A stretch of DNA of 64,000 nt from Siphonodentalium dalli (lineage: Eukaryota; Mollusca; Scaphopoda; Gadilida; Siphonodentaliidae): positions 93,796,707 to 93,860,706 of the forward strand of contig CP136067.1 in the NCBI GenBank assembly GCA_032622095.1. The letters are read 5' to 3'. The notes beneath the pieces were generated by a model that saw only the letters and a list, made by a program, of their open reading frames with translations, did no database searches and was not told where the DNA came from. The position numbers were made by a program, and so were the translations under genes. This document shows, piece after piece, positions 4,501 through 44,358 of the stretch; position 1 is the stretch's first letter; every line of letters starts with the position of its first letter.

Positions 4501-7500
4501 TCTCTAAACCGAACACCCTTCGGACCGGCCCTTCTGTTCAGTTTATAGAGGTGTTCGGTTTACAGAAAATCGCAAAAACCATCGGAATATATTGTTGCCG
4601 TCAGTAAGAGTTATCGAGACCCGAACACCTCATTACTGATTACTTTAACTTTATTCAATAAACTACAAAATTAACATAAATTTCAATAGATAAATATGCT
4701 ATAATAAGAAATATATGTATAGATAAACCAGGAAACACAGAAACGATACATTTTACGGTGATTCGCGGTTTTTGAAAATGTTGACGGTAGATTTCAACTC
4801 TGAGCTATGGTTTTCCCGACGGCTCATTAATGGTGATAATTTTATTTAATAAAACTGTGATGGTAACAATAAACCACCGTCCTGTACTTTTAGTGAATTA
4901 GTGTTTAGTTTGGACAATTGTTGTAAAAAGAGTGCATTCCAGCACAATAGCTGATGTAAAAACAATGTGTCACTGCTCTAATTACCTGTGAAGTCACCAT
5001 TGTTCAATCGGTTTGTGATACAAGCAAACTCGTATCTATCTGAATCTGCATGTATCTGAAGGTGGTGCAGTGCAGTAACCAATTCTGGTGTAGGCGCATC
5101 TAATTAGACACCTGTTGTTTTAATCCGTTTCAAAGCTTTGCCGATACAAAAGACCGCTAATTAAATTGCTACACTTATTCAATAGTACGAAATACATTAT
5201 CTGTGTTCACGCGCGTTCGTCTGGTATCGCTTTCGGAATTTATTTAGAATAAGATAAAATATAAAATACGGCAGTATCTTTTTATTCTCAGGCATTATAT
5301 TAGTTTTAATTTGTAAATAAATTTGATTAATGTACCAGTAACACTTCGTCCGTTTTTAACTAAATGTTGTCACTGACGGTGATCGAGGTCAAACATAGGT
5401 CAACTCAAATGCAGAAACGTTTACATCATTACCTTTTAACTGATTGCGTTCGGTCTCTTCCATCGCTTTAAGCGTTCGGATTTTGGAGGTAAACATTAGT
5501 GTATTTGTTCACTTACGGACTAATAAAGCTGTCCGATATTCGGAGTACAGAGGTTTCGGATTACAGAGGTAATAATTAGTGACAATGCACTTGGGTAAAT
5601 TCGAGACCGAACAATTCATTTGGAATGGAGAGGGGTTCGGATTGTAGGGGATCCGGTTTGGAGAGGTTTCACTGTATCTAAACCTGACTAATTTAAGTCA
5701 CTAACCTTTACAGACCCTCAGCATGGTGACTGCTCATTCGACCAATCAAACTGGCTTGCCATGTGTAACTACACACAGAGAACCGATGACGACGCCAACT
5801 GGATGCAGGGACAAACCACTCCTGTTGGGGAAATCGGACCAAGGGTAGACCACTCTGCATTCAAATCAGGTAACCAGTTAATTTGGTTATTTATATCTAA
5901 ATTGTTTATGACAATGAGAAAAATTCAGTTCCGTAATCACTGGATTATATCCGGAGGGCTAAGATTATCGAAAAACTGCCAATAATCATACTGATGTAGA
6001 TGGTGTTTTCAGATATGTGGAAGTTGACTAAATATTTGCAGCCTACAAATTCATTCCCCACTGGACTTTTTTCATGAAGAAAAATAAAAATTCAGACCGA
6101 CAAAATTAAAGTGATTCACAGTACCCTTTTCTGTCAGATATCTGTGATTATATGCAATTGATTTCTATCAAGAACATGTTTTTTAATATAAGAAATGGAC
6201 ATGCAGGAGTTGATTTAGTTCTTTAAAAGATTTATCAGTGGTTTGCAGATTTTTAATAGCATTATTTATCAAGAACATGTACATTGATTAAATGGAATTT
6301 CCTTTCATAAAATTGAAAATTGCTTTGAGAAATGTTATATATGCTAAAACAATTAAATTGACCCATAGTGAATTGATTTGAAACAGGATTTTAGACTAAT
6401 AGAATTTATTGTTTATTTTACAGGAAAGTTCCTGTTTATTGATGATTCTAAGCTGAAGGTCGGAGACATAGCACAGATACAGACTCCAGACTTCCCATCA
6501 AGTTTCAACATCTGCTTCATGAGATTCTGGTATTATATGAATGGATCTCCATATATGGGACCTCTCAGGGTGAGTTAATTCAATCTGCTTCATGAAATTC
6601 TGGTTGTATATGTATGGATCTCCATATATGGGACCTCTCAGGGTGAGTTAATTCACGTCTGATTATTGCAGTTCTGGTATTATATGTATAGATCTCCATA
6701 TATGGAGCCTCTCACTGCAAGTGAATTAACTTAAAAAAATATAACTGGATATGTGTAAATTTGTACATCAATGAGGGATGGAGTTTATACGTAATAACTG
6801 TCAACCAGTGACGTGGCTAGAGGGTTTCCGTTGGGGGTGGGTCCACTTTGAAGTTTCCAACTGCACCCCTCCCCCTTGAACCAAACCAAAATCCTATGTT
6901 TGCAAAAAATTTACCCCCCCCTTCCCCTTTGGGTAGGAACTTTCCAACTAGTACCTCAAACTTTCCAATTATTGGAAATTTCTAATCTGACACAGGTCAA
7001 TTTTCACACGAGTTATGGCCTATTGTTAAAATCACCACAGGCGTATTTTGCCATACCCTGGCAATGCTCTTGTTAATAGACTTTAAGTAGGGAAATATTT
7101 ATTTTATCATAGGTATACATAGAGACGGCACAGGGAAGTCGGTATCTGGCTTGGTCTTTAACAGGAAGCCAGGGTTCAAAGTGGAATTATGCTAACCTCC
7201 CACTGGGTAGCTCTAGCAGATATCATGTGATAATATCCGCCCAGAAAGGAGATTCTTCGCTGTCAGACGTCGCCATCGATGATGTGACCTTCACCCCTGG
7301 ATGTAATATTGGAGGTGAGATACCTGTTTTATGTCTGATACACCTGTTTTGTTGTGTGTTACACCAACATGCTCATTTGAGCCCCAAAATTATGTATACA
7401 TAATTTGGTAAGAGGTGTCTCAAAATATACATATGTAGAAAATTTCCGAACTAATTTGTTGATATACCGCTGAAACCAAGCCTTGAAATAGGGTGTCTGT

Positions 7501-16500: not shown

Positions 16501-19500
16501 TTGCACATAAAATGGCCATCTGTTGAAAAAAATTAAATTTGGGGAGGGGAGTGTTAGTGTTGGAAAGTTTGATTTTCAAGTTGGAAACGTATGATATGAG
16601 AATGATAGTAGTGCGACCCCTGTCGTATTCAGAGAAGCACCAACTTTTTCAGAAATATGGGGTGGGAGGGCAAGTTATATTTTTTTATATTTTATTCTTC
16701 ATAACATAAATGGTGATGGACAGTTCTATAGATATTGAAGCAGTATCCTATCTTATATAATGCAAGGTGATTTAGATTGTCCAATTGTGGAATCCTTAAA
16801 AAGTACTGGAAAAAGTTCATTTTGGTCTCCAAGGGTATGAATCCTGTCATGTTTAATTCACAATATTGAATCAATTGATAATTCTCCCAGTTTTTCTGAT
16901 ACTTGACCTTCTGCTGTAATAATTCTAAAACTTTTTATTCCAGAAATATGTGCTTCGGGATTCTTTTACTGCAACCCACTATGTCTCCCCAACAGCAAGA
17001 AATGTGACGGAACCGCAGACTGTCCCATTGATAGTTCAGATGAAAGCATGTGTAACCTCAAAGGTAAGGATCTTAAAGATGGTCTATCTCTTCCTATAAC
17101 ATATGATTTATATAGTTTCCTGAGTATAAAATAATAGTTCTGAATCGAATACCCCTGTCCAGAAATGCCCCTAGCAATTAATACTGATTTTATTTCAAAT
17201 TTTCCAGCTGAATTTTCTAGTAAAATAATATACATACAATCAATTTGGTACATCCTCAACCCTTGTACTCTAGGCATACTTTACAGAGACGGACGAGGTT
17301 TGCCAAATGGGGTAAAACACTTGGGTCATGCAGTGCAAAATGACTGATAAACTATAGAGTTATCCTGGTTACTCTGTATTTGTTAATCCATGTGGTTTGT
17401 CCTTCATGTCAGGTACCAGTCTTGAGGTTTGAAATTGGGAGAAGTCACTTCTCCCTGTTGTGACTTCTCCCTGTTTGGTTATTAGACTGTTATCAGGGAC
17501 AAGTAACTATGGATGAAATTCAATTTACTCCCCAACATCCCTTTTGTGATCCAATAAGTATTATGCAATACAAGAGCCCATTTATAAAACCAGTATATAG
17601 CTATTGGGACATATGCATACTGGTATATCAGAGAGAAGTCACTTCTCACAGGGACAATGATAGGGAGAAGTGGCACGTTTTAGGGAGAATGTCTCCCAAG
17701 TCGCCCTCCAGGCTGGTCCTTGCATCATATGGAACACATTGGATACTCCCCTTGCATCCATGTAAGATGCCTCGTGCCCAAAGTGAAAGATCCCGGTCTT
17801 AATTTCCGAAAATCTTGTCCAGTAGTATTCACAGTGAATCCTTCTGGTCCAATTTAATTTATCAAATAAATTTTCCAGTATATTATCAGCAAAATATTAT
17901 GGTGTACCGTGTAGGGCCATGATTAAGTGATTACTTGTACTCATCATTTGTTCTATAATCATTGTCTATGATAACAAATGGTTAATGTCGCTCAACATTT
18001 GATTAAGGGTCAGACACACGTTGTGCCAAAATTTTCTGGTATTTCAAAATGGATTTTCTCAAAATCTGTTTCGAATATCTTTGTGAAATTTGGTGCAAGA
18101 GATTATTTTTGACATATATTTTTTTCAAAAGTGGAGTTCATATATCCATGTTATCATATCTCAAGATCATGAGAGGAGACTTAATTGTTTATTTAATGAT
18201 TATTTTCATTAAGAAAGGCAACTACCCATAAATAATTTTCTATATTTGAGGATTTTCATGCCATGCCTGTTGGTCAGTGAACAATTGGGATGAGATGAGT
18301 TGTGGGTCATGGGTTCATAACCAAGTTAAAGCTGACCACCATATATCTTAACACTGTGGCCTAATTATTGTTGATTTCTCCCTGCTTGAGTCGACCACGG
18401 TGCATATCAACATATGTTTGCATTGGGCTGGAATATTTGTGACTGCTTTATTCTTCATTATAATATATGGGTATATGATGTTATATTATGCAATTAAAAA
18501 TCTGGCTCAACATACAAATGAAGCCTCCTCTCACAGAGCCAAGACAATGTGAATTATTAATTATTCTAGCAGTTCTTGGTACCGAAATGGGAAAAAATAA
18601 AACTAAAATGTCAAACCTCTCAAATGTATTAAAATCCATTGTTTTTGTTGTCTCTCAATAATTCCTCAGATTCTACATACAATGAAGATGATGATATGTG
18701 AAGTTCAAGATTTTTTGCCAGATAGATCCAGAAAAATTCTTTGTTGAAAATCTCTTGCCATTTTTGGCTGGATTTATGCAAAATGTGCGTCTCCCCCTTA
18801 AGATGGTTCGATTCGACAAAAAGATCGTGATTCGCAAGCCTATCATATTCTTGATTCTAGATATATGTCATTGTGTCTGTATATGGCTTTTATTCTCTTC
18901 CAGTCTGTACTCCTCTTCTCTTTGCTCCCGTTTTTCTCGTTGTGATATGGCTTTGCAGCTAAGACGACATTAAACCCTAACTAAACAAAAAATAAACTTT
19001 AATATGGCTACCCCATTTGTAACCCAAGAGCATAAACAGGGGTATCTTTATAGTCAAGCCTGCAAATAGTGTGCCTGTTATTTGCAGAATGAGTTCCCCA
19101 GAGGGTGAATATATAGCATCACCAAATTCACCCTCTGTGGACCTCATTCTGCTTTGGCCTCATCTTCTGTGAAGTATCTATATTCTCAAATTAACATTGT
19201 TTTAGTTACTTTTTCCCTTCTATTCAGTTTCTATATCCCCTAATTGGCAGAAGTTAAAATGCATAATCGAGGTGACTAATGGGTGAAGATCACCAACTTC
19301 AACCGGGGTACTTCAATCTGATCCTAGGTCTCCCATAGCAGTTGAGTCCTGAGGAGAATGAGGTTACCAGAGGGTCCATTTGGTGATGCTAGCAGGATAG
19401 CTTCACTAAATTCACCCTCTGGGGACCTCATTCTGAAATTGTCAGACACACTTAATTCAGACTTGTTTGTAACCCAAGGGCATAAGAGATATCCTTATAG

Positions 19501-22500
19501 ATCCATTGGGTAGGTCACATGTCTAATTGAAACATCTGCATATTTTTTGTTTCAGTTTGCCCACCTAACTACTGCCTTGATGGAGGAAGCTGTGTTGTCA
19601 CTGTAGGCTCGGCTCCTATGTGTCAGTGAGTACCCATCATTATTATGCCCACCCCACCCCCAATAGTATGGGGATATATAGGAATCGACTTGTCCGTCCA
19701 TCCATGGACGCAACTTAGTCCGAATTTGTATTGCTACATTTTTGAGTCAAAAATTTTGAAACTTGGCACAGACATTTATTAACATGGGAAACTGCACCTC
19801 CGATTATGAGGTTCGTCCAACTTTTTTTTTTAAACGGGACGCATTGTGTTATTGGCCCGTCCATTCATCTGTCCTTCCATTCGCTTTTTTACATTTCCAA
19901 ATGATAACTTTAGTATGTCTGAACTGAATGAAATAAAATGTTGTATGTTGGTTTACTAGCACAAAATACAGGTCAAGTTCAAATTCCGGTTCCGCCTGCC
20001 AATAATGGTTTCAATCAGATAAAAAAAGTTACTGCAGCATGCGTGAATTCTAAGTAAAAAAAGGGCCTTAACTCCTTAAAAAAAACCTCTGATCAAATCC
20101 ATATTCAGACTTGATCTGTATTTTGGGATGAGAAACACATATACAAAATTTGGACAATCTGGATGTCGATACTATGTGTACCATACACATAACAAAATAC
20201 TTATTTTTAAAGATGGTCTATCACTTCCTGGAGCCACTTTATACAACATCAAAATTTCTAGGAAACTTGTTTTAGCACTGCTGTTCCCAAACATACACAT
20301 GAGAATTAAAGATCTGGTGTTAAAAATTTGCACATATAAGTGCCTTCAAAGAAAAATTTCAATCAAAATTTAGTTATGTTCTAAAAATAGCAACACAAAC
20401 TGTCCCGTTTCATAGAAAATAATTCATACAACAATCAATTCATGACAGAAGCTCCAGTTGACTGGTTTCCCTGTCTCATAATTATTATTTTACCCCCCCC
20501 CCCATATATATTATTTGATTGAATACTTTTTCCCCTTGAACAGGTGTAACCATAACGACACAGGTGCTCGATGTCAGTCGCCTTCAGCTCAACGACAAAA
20601 TCAGAACTCACCTTCCGGTACCAGCGGTAAGTTGTTCAGAATAGATTAATATTTATCCAGCGACCCCCACCTGGCTAAAAAAGTCAAATATAACACCTGA
20701 ATGCGATTAACCCTTCAATGACTGGAGCTTCCCGAAATTTTGCGAAAACCCTGTGCCAATGCATTCTCTTATATATACGAGTCTCCCACAGGGAGACTGG
20801 CATATATTTAAATGAGTTTGAGGATCTTTAAATGCGGCACTAGCGCAGCTCCCGTCATGAAAGGGTTATTATCAAGATAGTGTCACATAAAAAGATTTAA
20901 GTCACAGTTATGACACTTTTTCTAATTTTCATTTTAGTTTTAGCTCATCAGCATAGTTATAACTTGAACACATGTCTGCTTATGTGGTTGATGTTTGACA
21001 TATGGCCTCTTCCTAATATCGTGATCTAGTATTAGTATAACCTCACTCACAGCCCGTTTTCCATATAACAAGTTTTGTTCATTTGTTTATTCTGAAATTA
21101 TGGCCCTTAACCCTTTACCCAACAAACCGGCCAAAACCGGCCAAATAAAGCTTCAACAGCCTAAACTATCTTCTGTCTGTCTCAATAGAACCATACAAAT
21201 ATGGGTATCATTGGAACCGGCTCCTTGACCACATTGTGATAGTTACAGTTATGCCCTGTGCCAATGCATTCTCTTATATATGCGAGTCGACCATAGGTCG
21301 CCTCGCATATATAAGAGAATGCATTGGCCTAAAAAAAATCTTTTTTTACCATTTTTTCTTACATTCTTTAACAATTTTATAATTTTTAATGTGTTAAGCC
21401 AATGCATTCTCTTATATATGCGAGGCGACCTATGGTCGACTCGCATATATAAGAGAATGCATTGGCACAGGGCCCTTCTGTTGGGTAAAGGGTTAAAGTG
21501 TAAGATACGCCCATTGTTTTATCTTCGTTATATTAGATTGGATGCATACAGTAATGCTCTAAATAAACGACTCCTTAACCACAGCAGAATTATGGGTAAT
21601 TTTTCAGGATTTAGTCAGAAATATGGCTTGTAGCCATTCATCGGAAAGCTCTGGTTAAGAAGTCAATTATTTAGGGCATTACTGTTCGATCTTTGGTATA
21701 TTCATGAATCCCGATTGGATGAAGGATATATGCACATGCTACAGCTTTTGTCCAGTCATCGCAAGCCAGATTAACCCTTTCACGTCGGATTATGCGCTAG
21801 TGCAGCATTAAAGATCCTGTGCCAGTGCATTCTCTTATATATATATAGGGAGGTCAAGGTAAATATTGTTAGCCCAATGTATTCTCTTATATATAAGAGA
21901 ATGCATTGGCACAGGGTTTTTCCCAAAATTTTAGGAAGCTCCAGTCATGGAAGGGTTAAGTCATTTATAATAAGCCAATTCCATCTTGCGAGAGTCACTG
22001 TGCTATGCAATTGTTCTGATGGCCAATGATATGACCTTGTTTTCAGGTTGGAAGATAGCGTTACCCGTGGTGTTCTCCCTTGTTGGTGTGGCATTGATTG
22101 TAGTTGTTCTCATTTTCAGGTTGGAAGATAGCAGTAGCCGTGGTCTTCTCCCTTGTTGGTGTGGCATTGATTGTAGTTGTTCTCATTTTCAGGTTGGAAG
22201 ATAGCGGTAGCCGTGGTCTTCTCCCTTGTCGGTGTGGCATTGATTGTAGTTGGTGTAATATTCTTCATCAGAAAGAGGCAATCCCAGTGAGTATTAAAGA
22301 CATATTATGGACTTGTTCGGATGCGTGAAATCGATCAGATAGTACTCAGGCCCTATGCCAACCTAAGGGATATAGCATTCTATTAACATTGCCAAAGTTT
22401 TCAAAGAAATCGACCATACCACTCCATAGAAAACATTGTCTGAACTATTTTCGATTGTAAATTTTTTACATGTCGATTCGGGATGCAACTATCGTCCATA

Positions 22501-25500
22501 AACTAACACAAATGATTTCGCCATCGAGAGTCATTACATTTAATTAATATATATTAAGTATGACAATGTGTGTTGTCATTTTGGATTAATATTTATAAAA
22601 AAGAACTACTTTGAGCAAGATTATTCTCAATTTCTAAGTACGATACCAGAGTGTTTCACATCACTAATAACACTCCCATAATATATCACTGATTGACACA
22701 ATAAAACTTCATCCTCAATATGTAAAATAAAAATATTTACAGTAATGCCCTAAATAATCGACTCCTTAACCACAGCAGAATTATGGGTAATCTTTCAGGA
22801 TTTAGTTGGAAATAAGCCATATTTCTGACTAAATCCTGAAATATTACCCATAATTCTGCTGTGGTTAAGGAGTCGATTACTTAGGGCATTACTGTATTTC
22901 CCTTAATATCCTAGTGAAAAGATCATAGGTCAGGATAAAAATGTTTTTACTTGAAAAATAATCGTCAAGTTTTATATCTGTGAAGTGAGTGGCTAGTCAT
23001 TGAAACTTCTGGTCAAACTTTGATATTGCATGGCAGCCATCTTTAGACTACTGGAGTTTGAAATCTCCTTAAAAATAGACTAATTTCCAGCGGCTAGATG
23101 TCGGTAGCCTTGTATTTTTTACATATGGTTATATTTGAGATATTTTTGCCATGTAGGGCTGCACGATATTAAGTGTGATCGGCACCGAAGCGTTTTAATT
23201 TAATGTAAGGTCAATATAGCTGCCGGTAAAGTGAACAGTTTATCCTGTTGTGCAAATTCTAGTATAAAAGTGCATCTATTTCAGATATAGTTCAAACATA
23301 AAATCTGACCTGTACAGCAACAGTACCCTATACGGAAAGACATAAAAAACGCTAATCCCATTGCCAATCTAACAACATCAGTAGAACAAGTTTACCCTTA
23401 CATGACAATATCGCCTTGCATCAGGTTACGGCCAACCACAGAGACACACAAAAACATGCCTGTTTATTGTATGGTTATATTTTGCGAATACCCATGTCTA
23501 TATTTTAAACAGCTACCATTTTACGAATACACACGTGTCTACCAGCATCTGGCCACAGTTGTTTATTTTCTGTTGGATGTTTTACTGTGGTCATTTCCAA
23601 GATGAAAAGTTCCAAATAATACAATTTGACAACTTGGTTTAGTGTTATCCACATGATAACTTATATCTTGCACTGATCCATAGCGAGACAACTCTGATTT
23701 CATTTATTTCATTTTTAGGCAATCACTATTTAGTCGAGAGACTTATCAGGGTATGGACAATCCAATGTATGGCTCGGACCTACCAGTAAGTATCCCTGAG
23801 TCCTGAGGTATATGATCTAGGCTATATAAGGGTAAACAATTAAAATTTTATCTGATTGAGCTATTTTTATTCATATATTACATCAAATTGTACATTCTAT
23901 TTTTGTCTGTATGAAACGGTTATCATCAATATTCTATATGTGATGGGGATGACTTAAGAAAACCACTATGCTTACTGCCAAATCATGTTATATTAAACAT
24001 TGTTTCATTCCGTCATCATACCGTGAGTTTTGTACAATACTTTGGTTACATGAAATAAGTTTAAACTAAGTATCCATACTCAATGTAGATTAAAGAGCAT
24101 TTAATTTTATTATTTTTATTTGTCTCCACACCATACTAATTGTACTGTAATCAATGTAATGGAATTACTAAGTCTAATGTCTTGCCCCATTTTTGTCATG
24201 TTTCTTAATTCTAAGAAAGTTATCTTTAGTTATTTGAAAGTACATTCCAACATAAGTAGGTGCAGCACCAGCGTGTGATGCCTGTCGATTTATCCTCTGG
24301 CAGTACTACCTGTGCATTAAAATACACTTTTCTTTTATTGACATATAAGAAATTCTCCCAATAGTATAATCAGGAGAGCCAATAATGTTTCCAACTACAT
24401 TACCGTATGATATAATTTGAATTCTTATTTCTTTAATGTTGTGTGGTACGTGTCCCCCATAGTGTTTATATTCCTGTGATTTAAAACTTGCTGACAAGTT
24501 TTACTGGTACGATTCCCGTCTATCACTTTTCATACTTATGTCAACATTCAAAATTGTCCATGTGGCGCTTCGAAATGTGTACCCAGGCTTACATTTTGCC
24601 TCTGTGTGGGTTAACGGAGACGGGTTGACCCCCGCATCTCGTGGTGAATCTACCCCCTTGCCCCAAGAGCTTTTGTTTCGACACTATTTTACAACCATGT
24701 ATGGCTTTGACCTACCACTAAGTATTCATACACCATGTTGATTGTATGAGCTTCATTTCAATTTGTGATTGAATAATTTCAGGTTGAGATGAACAAGATG
24801 GAGGCACCAACATTCGGAGAGCCATATAATGATGTGAGTAGTCTCCCTTGGTTCACTCTAATTCTTGCTTGAATATTCTGATAACGACTGAACTTTTATA
24901 TAGTGACTTTGTTTTTGTCAAGCAGTAGATATGAATCTGATGTATTTTACTCTTCCATGATATGAGCTGTGCTTGTGCAGCATTAAAGATCCTGTGCCAG
25001 TGCATTCTCCTGTATATGCGAGTCTCCCACAGGGAGCCTTGCATACATAAGAGAATGTACTGGCTTACAAGGTCAAGGTAAATATTGTTAGGCCAATGTA
25101 TTCTCTTATAAATATATGCGATACTTGCATATATAGGAGAATACATTGGCACAGGGTTTTCACAAAATGTCAGGAAGCTCTAGTCATGGAAGGGTTAACA
25201 GATATTATCATCTGAATTCTACCTCTATATACAAAGAATCAAACCACTATAAATGATTCTCCTAAACATTTCAATACTTATGTTATACCGCTGGACCTAA
25301 ATTCACTATAAAGTCAGACAACACAGTAAAAGGTAGACCAAGTCTTCTTGGGTAGCAGTACACGATTTCACGGGTTGTAGGGGGTCTGAAAAATAGAAAT
25401 ATAAGTATCTGGGGGCATAACAGCAAGTGTAGCCTGTGTTAACTGTGTCATTACTGGTTTGAAGGTTTATTTATTTTACAAAACTGGGAAAGTTCTCAAA

Positions 25501-44148: not shown

Positions 44149-44155
44149 TAATTGC

Positions 44156-44358
<203 letters not shown>

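Follow-up and report, generated by a model that had tools for sequence, protein, structure and literature searches.

Internal tandem repeats, as called by Tandem Repeats Finder (TRF), can generate alternative splicing patterns where they lie across human exon-intron borders, as described in PMC2812944 (Genome Biol 2009) from a comparison of variable repeats between primate-specific genes in segmental duplications. A related kind of array is reported for UBC and VCX3A, in which a splice site sits in every tandem unit, the motif AGGT serves as donor as well as acceptor, and the repeat units are multiples of three in 45 of 77 introns (PMC10809524, Genome Biol 2024); the authors of that study suggest that expansion of such arrays is less harmful since they can be removed by splicing. 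Duplication of an intron-exon segment is also known, and in the described case the branch site, pyrimidine tract and 3' splice site were copied along with it.

The locus described here lies in a window of 64,000 nucleotides from the scaphopod mollusc Siphonodentalium dalli (contig CP136067.1, positions 93,796,707 to 93,860,706 of the forward strand). It holds an exon for a membrane helix (the TM exon) with two further copies of its acceptor and first coding bases, and it resembles the dual-specific arrays of UBC and VCX3A in carrying a splice site in every tandem unit. Unlike those arrays, however, its AGGT scores as a weak donor, other arrays in this genome have no AGGT, and of the 11 spacings measured only two are divisible by three. 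As in the known segment duplication, the signals of the 3' splice site were copied along, but here the copies lengthen an existing intron and a new intron is unnecessary. Unlike the repeats of PMC2812944, comparable copies were found at 11 of 119 sampled exon edges, conserved gene families included. A limited literature search did not find splice-site arrays on such a scale described, and we regard their recurrence across genes as more interesting than the TM-exon array alone.

The host gene

On its + strand the window carries the 3' portion of a MAM/LDLa gene of very large size. When six ORFs from the window were compared with Pfam, three matched PF00629 (MAM; two pass the cut-off and the third reaches 23.2 of 26.4 bits) and three matched PF00057 (LDLa; all over the cut-off), and profiles made from the gene's own domains match from -69929 to 17053, where negative coordinates are window-relative and lie in the upstream loci (L013-L019) joined to the window. 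The gene model comes from a script in which the 96 kb are handled as a single gene, and it had two phase breaks; a first EGF exon, added by hand, closes the phase gap before 20544, and the break before -47609 stays. Our reading is that the 96 kb of domains form one gene, the model phases agreeing except at that one place. The exons nearest to the array are as follows.

16944-17063 (+), LDLa exon
19556..19625 (+), first EGF-like exon, identified by visual inspection
20544..20626 (+), second EGF-like exon, likewise identified by inspection; the model joins it to the TM exon
23719..23785 (+), cytoplasmic tail exon with NPMY, recognised from sequence only

The predicted product is a very large MAM/LDLa/EGF single-pass receptor of MALRD-like type. 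With MALRD1 and similar MAM and LDL-receptor class A proteins it shares tandem MAM and LDLa domains, EGF-like exons, a membrane helix and an NPxY-type tail; the likeness is drawn at the level of domain architecture. A GTAAGT at 23786 follows the tail exon, and the unspliced frame reaches a TGA about 20 nt further on; more exons beyond 23785 are probable.

Anatomy of the TM-exon array

TRF places the array at 22040-22252, with a period of 73, 2.9 copies and 95% matches, and its units start with an acceptor motif at 22040, 22113 and 22186. The spacing of 73 + 73 agrees with the original prediction, made from the sequence of the window, of three copies 73 nt apart, each with its own TTTTCAG. With up to three mismatches allowed, the 20-mer TTTTCAGGTTGGAAGATAGC has three matches in the window, all exact, against a shuffle mean of 0.03.

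22047..22119 (+), copy 1, the outermost 73-nt unit; acceptor TTTTCAG at 22040-22046, score 3.8, the weakest of the three
22120..22192 (+), copy 2, 73-nt unit; acceptor at 22113-22119, score 7.0, the same as copy 3
22193..22286 (+), copy 3, the TM exon proper, 94 nt; in the frame of the NPMY tail, donor CCCA/GTGAGT

These scores (3.8, 7.0 and 7.0 for copies 1, 2 and 3) come from generic splice-site matrices; on them all three acceptors stand above the 98th percentile of AGs in a 134-kb region, and copy 1, whose tract differs from those of copies 2 and 3, is the weaker. Copies 2 and 3 each have a branch-point-like TTGAT of their own 23 nt upstream, and copy 1 has CTGAT at 28 nt; an array unit comprises an acceptor, a branch-point-like motif and the first ~60 coding nt.

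Within the first 60 nt, copies 1 and 2 differ at four positions, copies 1 and 3 at four, and copies 2 and 3 at two. Copies 1 and 2 run into the next acceptor and only copy 3 continues into the exon; moreover, copies 1 and 2 have in common a 13-nt end that is absent from copy 3, which by structure marks copy 3 as the parent exon. The original acceptor may have resembled those of copies 2 and 3, with copy 1 then losing six bases. The near-identity of copies 2 and 3 had been taken to imply recent duplication or gene conversion: that the copies arose by duplication holds, whilst recency and conversion rest on two versus four differences in 60 nt, and two to four differences per 60 nt are too few to decide either the order of duplication or conversion among the three copies. 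The copy-3 acceptor and the start of the exon lie inside the array, and a TRF-detectable tandem repeat thus spans the predicted exon-intron border; considered by itself, the array is what tandem duplication ordinarily produces. Mutually exclusive exons were considered and rejected, the copies being only 17 nt of GT...AG sequence apart (by eye).

Each unit opens with TTTTCAG/GTTGG, which puts a CAG/GT (AGGT) at 22047, 22120 and 22193, and this is what a dual-specific array would look like, in which 73-nt units are removed as introns, or stepwise, in the manner of the human UBC AGGT repeats; according to that precedent (PMC10809524), weaker motifs can also serve as dual sites. As a donor, however, CAG/GTTGGA scores 1.2 versus 6.0 for the real upstream donor (generic matrix), the junction regenerated after a first splice (GCG/GTTGGA) scores -1.2, and the acceptor arrays found at -7635 and -67501 have no AGGT; we hold this reading to be highly improbable.

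A DNA search of the 2.23-Gb assembly with copies 1-2, although non-exhaustive, matched the TM-exon locus only. When flanks were added to the query there were 40 other matches, every one of them due to a dispersed repeat that adjoins the exon, and a protein query gave five matches at the locus and one weak match elsewhere (E 0.3). On these non-exhaustive searches we rejected the idea that the array has haplotigs or further copies in the genome. Since the copies differ from each other and the assembly search gives one locus, a plain haplotype or collapse artefact would be unlikely. More generally, our analysis covers the assembly, and an assembly artefact might in principle account for the array; but the TM-exon copies are not identical, further arrays with diverged copies exist, and the assembly consists of nine contigs, those looked at being 190-301 Mb, and we give such an origin almost no credence.

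Predicted readings through the three acceptors

Readings were built by joining 20545-20626 to each acceptor in turn, and then to 23719-23785. The membrane helix is present in all three, as had been anticipated, with best 19-residue hydropathies of 3.06, 3.26 and 3.11 for copies 1, 2 and 3. From the helix, the copy-3 reading passes in frame into the NPMY tail, and it is the sole copy to do so; the copy-1 reading stops at a TAG within copy 3 (22202-22204, +), 82 nt before the exon end, and the copy-2 reading stops at TAG 23731-23733, 52 nt before the end of exon 23719-23785. Several Cys occur in both the copy-1 and copy-2 tails. In these joined readings the original prediction was correct that only copy 3 keeps frame with the NPMY tail, and that use of copy 1 ends at a TAG in copy 3 with a Cys-containing tail; the fate of the copy-2 reading is an addition to it.

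The position of a stop relative to the exon end bears on NMD through the 50-55-nt rule. By this rule copy-1 mRNA, whose reading terminates 82 nt short of the exon boundary, would be an NMD target and go to decay; the copy-2 product would be borderline, or would escape if 23719 begins the last exon.

It had been proposed that acceptor choice acts as a regulated switch between a signalling, NPMY-tailed receptor and tail-less anchored forms with Cys-rich ends. The three acceptor scores, all above the 98th percentile of AGs, speak for this, as do the helix kept in every reading and the several Cys of the copy-1 and copy-2 tails. Set against these points, the copy-1 stop falls 82 nt before the exon end, and the tails are merely out-of-frame readings of helix DNA. 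Further evidence on the switch comes from other exon edges.

Arrays at other exon edges

The receptor gene has further arrays at both acceptors and donors.

6424..6569 (+), MAM exon, 3' edge also tandemly copied
6510..6729 (+), second 73-nt array (placed at 6508-6714 by TRF); three copies of the MAM exon end with the GTGAGTTAATTCA donor
-67501, acceptor array, spacing 65 nt
-7635, acceptor array of a MAM exon, about 60 nt (nearest 59), eight copies
-3214, acceptor array, 92 nt
-67374, donor array, about 44-45 nt, nine copies
-56317, donor array, 26 nt
-67641..-67005, -56334..-56206, -8100..-7608 and -3335..-3159, extents of the upstream arrays

The exon from -67501 to -67374 thus has arrays at both edges. 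In the array at the MAM 6569 edge the third copy is 77% identical and its donor is lost, and at -3214 the outer acceptor copy scores 5.7 versus 1.4, so the outer copy is not always the weaker. At -67374 the nearest additional copy keeps the reading frame (45 nt), and the gene model had picked the second donor. One more 44-nt array, at -28579..-27748 (TTTTCCCTCACTTATCATAG/ACAATATGCC), has an acceptor-like look and is tied to no exon.

Arrays of the same kind occur in genes for TCP-1/chaperonin and NACA proteins, and the idea that they are a property of the receptor gene alone was dropped.

about 1425-1525 of locus L034, TCP-1 acceptor array, copy 55 nt upstream
about 1400-1510 of locus L049, TCP-1 acceptor array, copy 83 nt upstream
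about 1600-2045 of locus L052, TCP-1 donor array, eight further copies; about nine units, 39 nt and variants
44149..44274 (-), NACA array of exon end plus donor, repeated about 2.8 times

In L034, L049 and L052 the exon-joined copy carries the protein on (GGGAIEMELSRYLRDF, GESKYTYVEDC and FRKATHM, respectively; by eye), and in L034 and L049 reading on from the outer copies of the acceptor meets stops (by eye). In L052 the first extra unit, 39 nt long, preserves the frame and has AT in place of its GT. In nine arrays inspected by eye (the TM exon; MAM 6569 and -7635; -67374 and -56317; L034, L049 and L052; NACA) it is the exon-joined copy that continues the protein.

No receptor logic applies to TCP-1 and NACA genes, and unit lengths take no account of reading frame, being multiples of three in two of 11 cases. 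Recurrence in unrelated genes argues against a switch, and the arrays look like a habit of the genome rather than something purpose-built. The proposed switch between signalling and tail-less forms therefore finds no specific support, as arrays exist at other edges of the same gene and in TCP-1 and NACA, and we consider a regulated switch very unlikely.

How often exon edges carry arrays

An edge was scored positive when a 60-nt probe laid across the border had a copy within 200 nt. In the receptor gene 7 of 74 edges were positive, or 9 of 74 with copies up to 1500 nt; these 74 edges are from our own gene model and some are unsure, and the donor of the -67501 exon was moved by hand from the second to the first copy. 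Exon-interior positions gave 1 of 273, and 12 of 273 up to 1500 nt.

Of the TCP-1 matches, 28 loci were run among the 53 listed. Five duplicate or near-duplicate loci were dropped (L031, L042 and L051 by script, L039 and L044 by eye), and nine of the remaining 46 edges, with scores of 0 or less, were removed to leave 37 unique testable edges, three of which have a tandem copy; each edge is the best-scoring AG or GT near a profile match, and some, such as that of L028, are perhaps not real exon edges. For NACA, four exons were picked, and one of their eight edges (a donor) was positive. Pooled over the three gene groups, this makes 11 of 119 sampled edges. All 11 positives have their copies on the intron side, with nearest-copy spacings of 65, 45, 26, 59, 92, 73, 73, 55, 83, 39 and 44 nt.

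Against raw counts from non-coding background there is no excess of arrays at edges: receptor-gene introns gave 81 of 697 and 287 of 2363 (12.1%), splice-like intronic sites 30 of 230, TCP-1 flanks 107 of 735, and eight arbitrary 10-kb pieces 68 of 720. Weighted by copy number, the background falls to 3.1% (introns), 3.4% (splice-like intronic sites), 5.9% (TCP-1 flanks) and 2.1% (arbitrary pieces). The 7 of 74 receptor-gene edges exceed the weighted 3.1% with p=0.008 and the 3.4% with p=0.013, and the pooled 11 of 119 compared with the weighted 2.1-5.9% gives a one-sided p of 4e-5 to 0.09; the TCP-1 edges (3 of 37) show no excess over their own weighted flanks of 5.9% (p=0.38). Arrays are about as frequent at edges as in introns, and an excess at edges is possible; because enrichment hinges on copy-number weighting, a mutational hot spot at exon edges is left open. 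Tentatively, and with rather more doubt than conviction, we suggest that about one splice site in eleven lies in a near-identical array of its own copies, some with eight or nine units, that edges may be preferred targets of duplication, and that the splicing machinery routinely picks the exon-joined copy.

A model for the origin and use of the arrays

Drawing these observations together, we think that the TM-exon array is probably one case of genome-wide tandem duplication that is tolerated at exon edges, with copy 3 mostly used and the others giving noise or degraded transcripts. The genome-wide process would be one of tandem duplication with units of about 25-100 nt. At the TM exon, a stretch over the intron-exon border would have been duplicated head to tail, such that two extra acceptor-bearing copies landed on the intron side of an intact exon, and edge duplications of this kind may be tolerated since splicing at the exon-joined copy can still produce the ancestral mRNA. 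We infer that most mRNA would use copy 3 and encode the full receptor with its NPMY tail, and that some would use copy 2, and less copy 1, to give frame-shifted products without the tail, which would be either noise or targets of degradation.

The share of copy 3 is the softer part of this scheme, and copy-2 use could be substantial. In a human reporter library, equal tandem acceptors at spacings of 2-59 nt are reported to show no order preference (PMC6783452), and since the acceptors of copies 2 and 3 score equally, some splicing to copy 2 is likely; with scores of 7.0 and 7.0, a mixture of copy-2 and copy-3 junctions would be likely, and unregulated alternative splicing is possible, although noise or NMD rather than regulation is what we expect. 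The same two facts, equal scores and no order preference in the human library (PMC6783452), would also fit a hypomorphic or degrading allele, in which competition between copies 2 and 3 cuts the output of functional receptor without any regulation. Against this, the other modelled exons are open and bear recognisable splice sites, a weak point since the model requires both, and we regard such an allele as unlikely.

Returning to tolerated duplication, donor and acceptor arrays might be expected to behave differently. In donor arrays the exon-joined copy comes first, and in the same human reporter library the first of two consensus donors was predominantly used (PMC6783452); given this first-donor use and the lack of an order preference among acceptors, donor arrays whose copies are full-length would for the most part be silent, while some leakage may occur in acceptor arrays like that of the TM exon. 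Human ATP11A would count against a simple first-donor rule, as an 8-nt duplication across its donor shifted splicing to the outer copy and lengthened the exon (PMC9035003), although the reported duplication covered only 2 intronic nt, unlike the full-length copies in the donor arrays here. The in-frame first extra copies of L052 and -67374 (39 and 45 nt) also weigh against the explanation, and a neutral reading leaves the weighted excess at edges (7 of 74) unexplained.

If arrays are as common at splice sites as suggested above, they would offer a natural library in which the effect of position alone on the choice of splice site could be measured. Donors and acceptors duplicated perfectly or nearly so, in housekeeping and receptor genes alike, would let ordinary RNA-seq compare exon-proximal with exon-distal identical sites, without designed constructs, and the set would show how one genome carries many decoy splice sites. 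There is also a caution for work on this assembly, in that a tandem acceptor or donor alone is not evidence of regulated alternative splicing.

Dispersed elements around the TM exon

A dispersed repeat of ~380 nt, from 22288 to ~22665, starts almost at the TM-exon donor, and matches to its first ~45 nt were scored at 40 other sites across the genome. The notion that one transposon makes up the whole downstream intron was rejected, since this repeat next to the donor and a separate element at 22738-22897 were found instead of one that spans the intron. On either side of the TM exon lie the arms of an inverted repeat, 21546-21636 and 22807-22897 (91 nt, 92% complementary), which belong to a dispersed element; pairing of these 91-nt arms in the pre-mRNA could affect inclusion of the exon.
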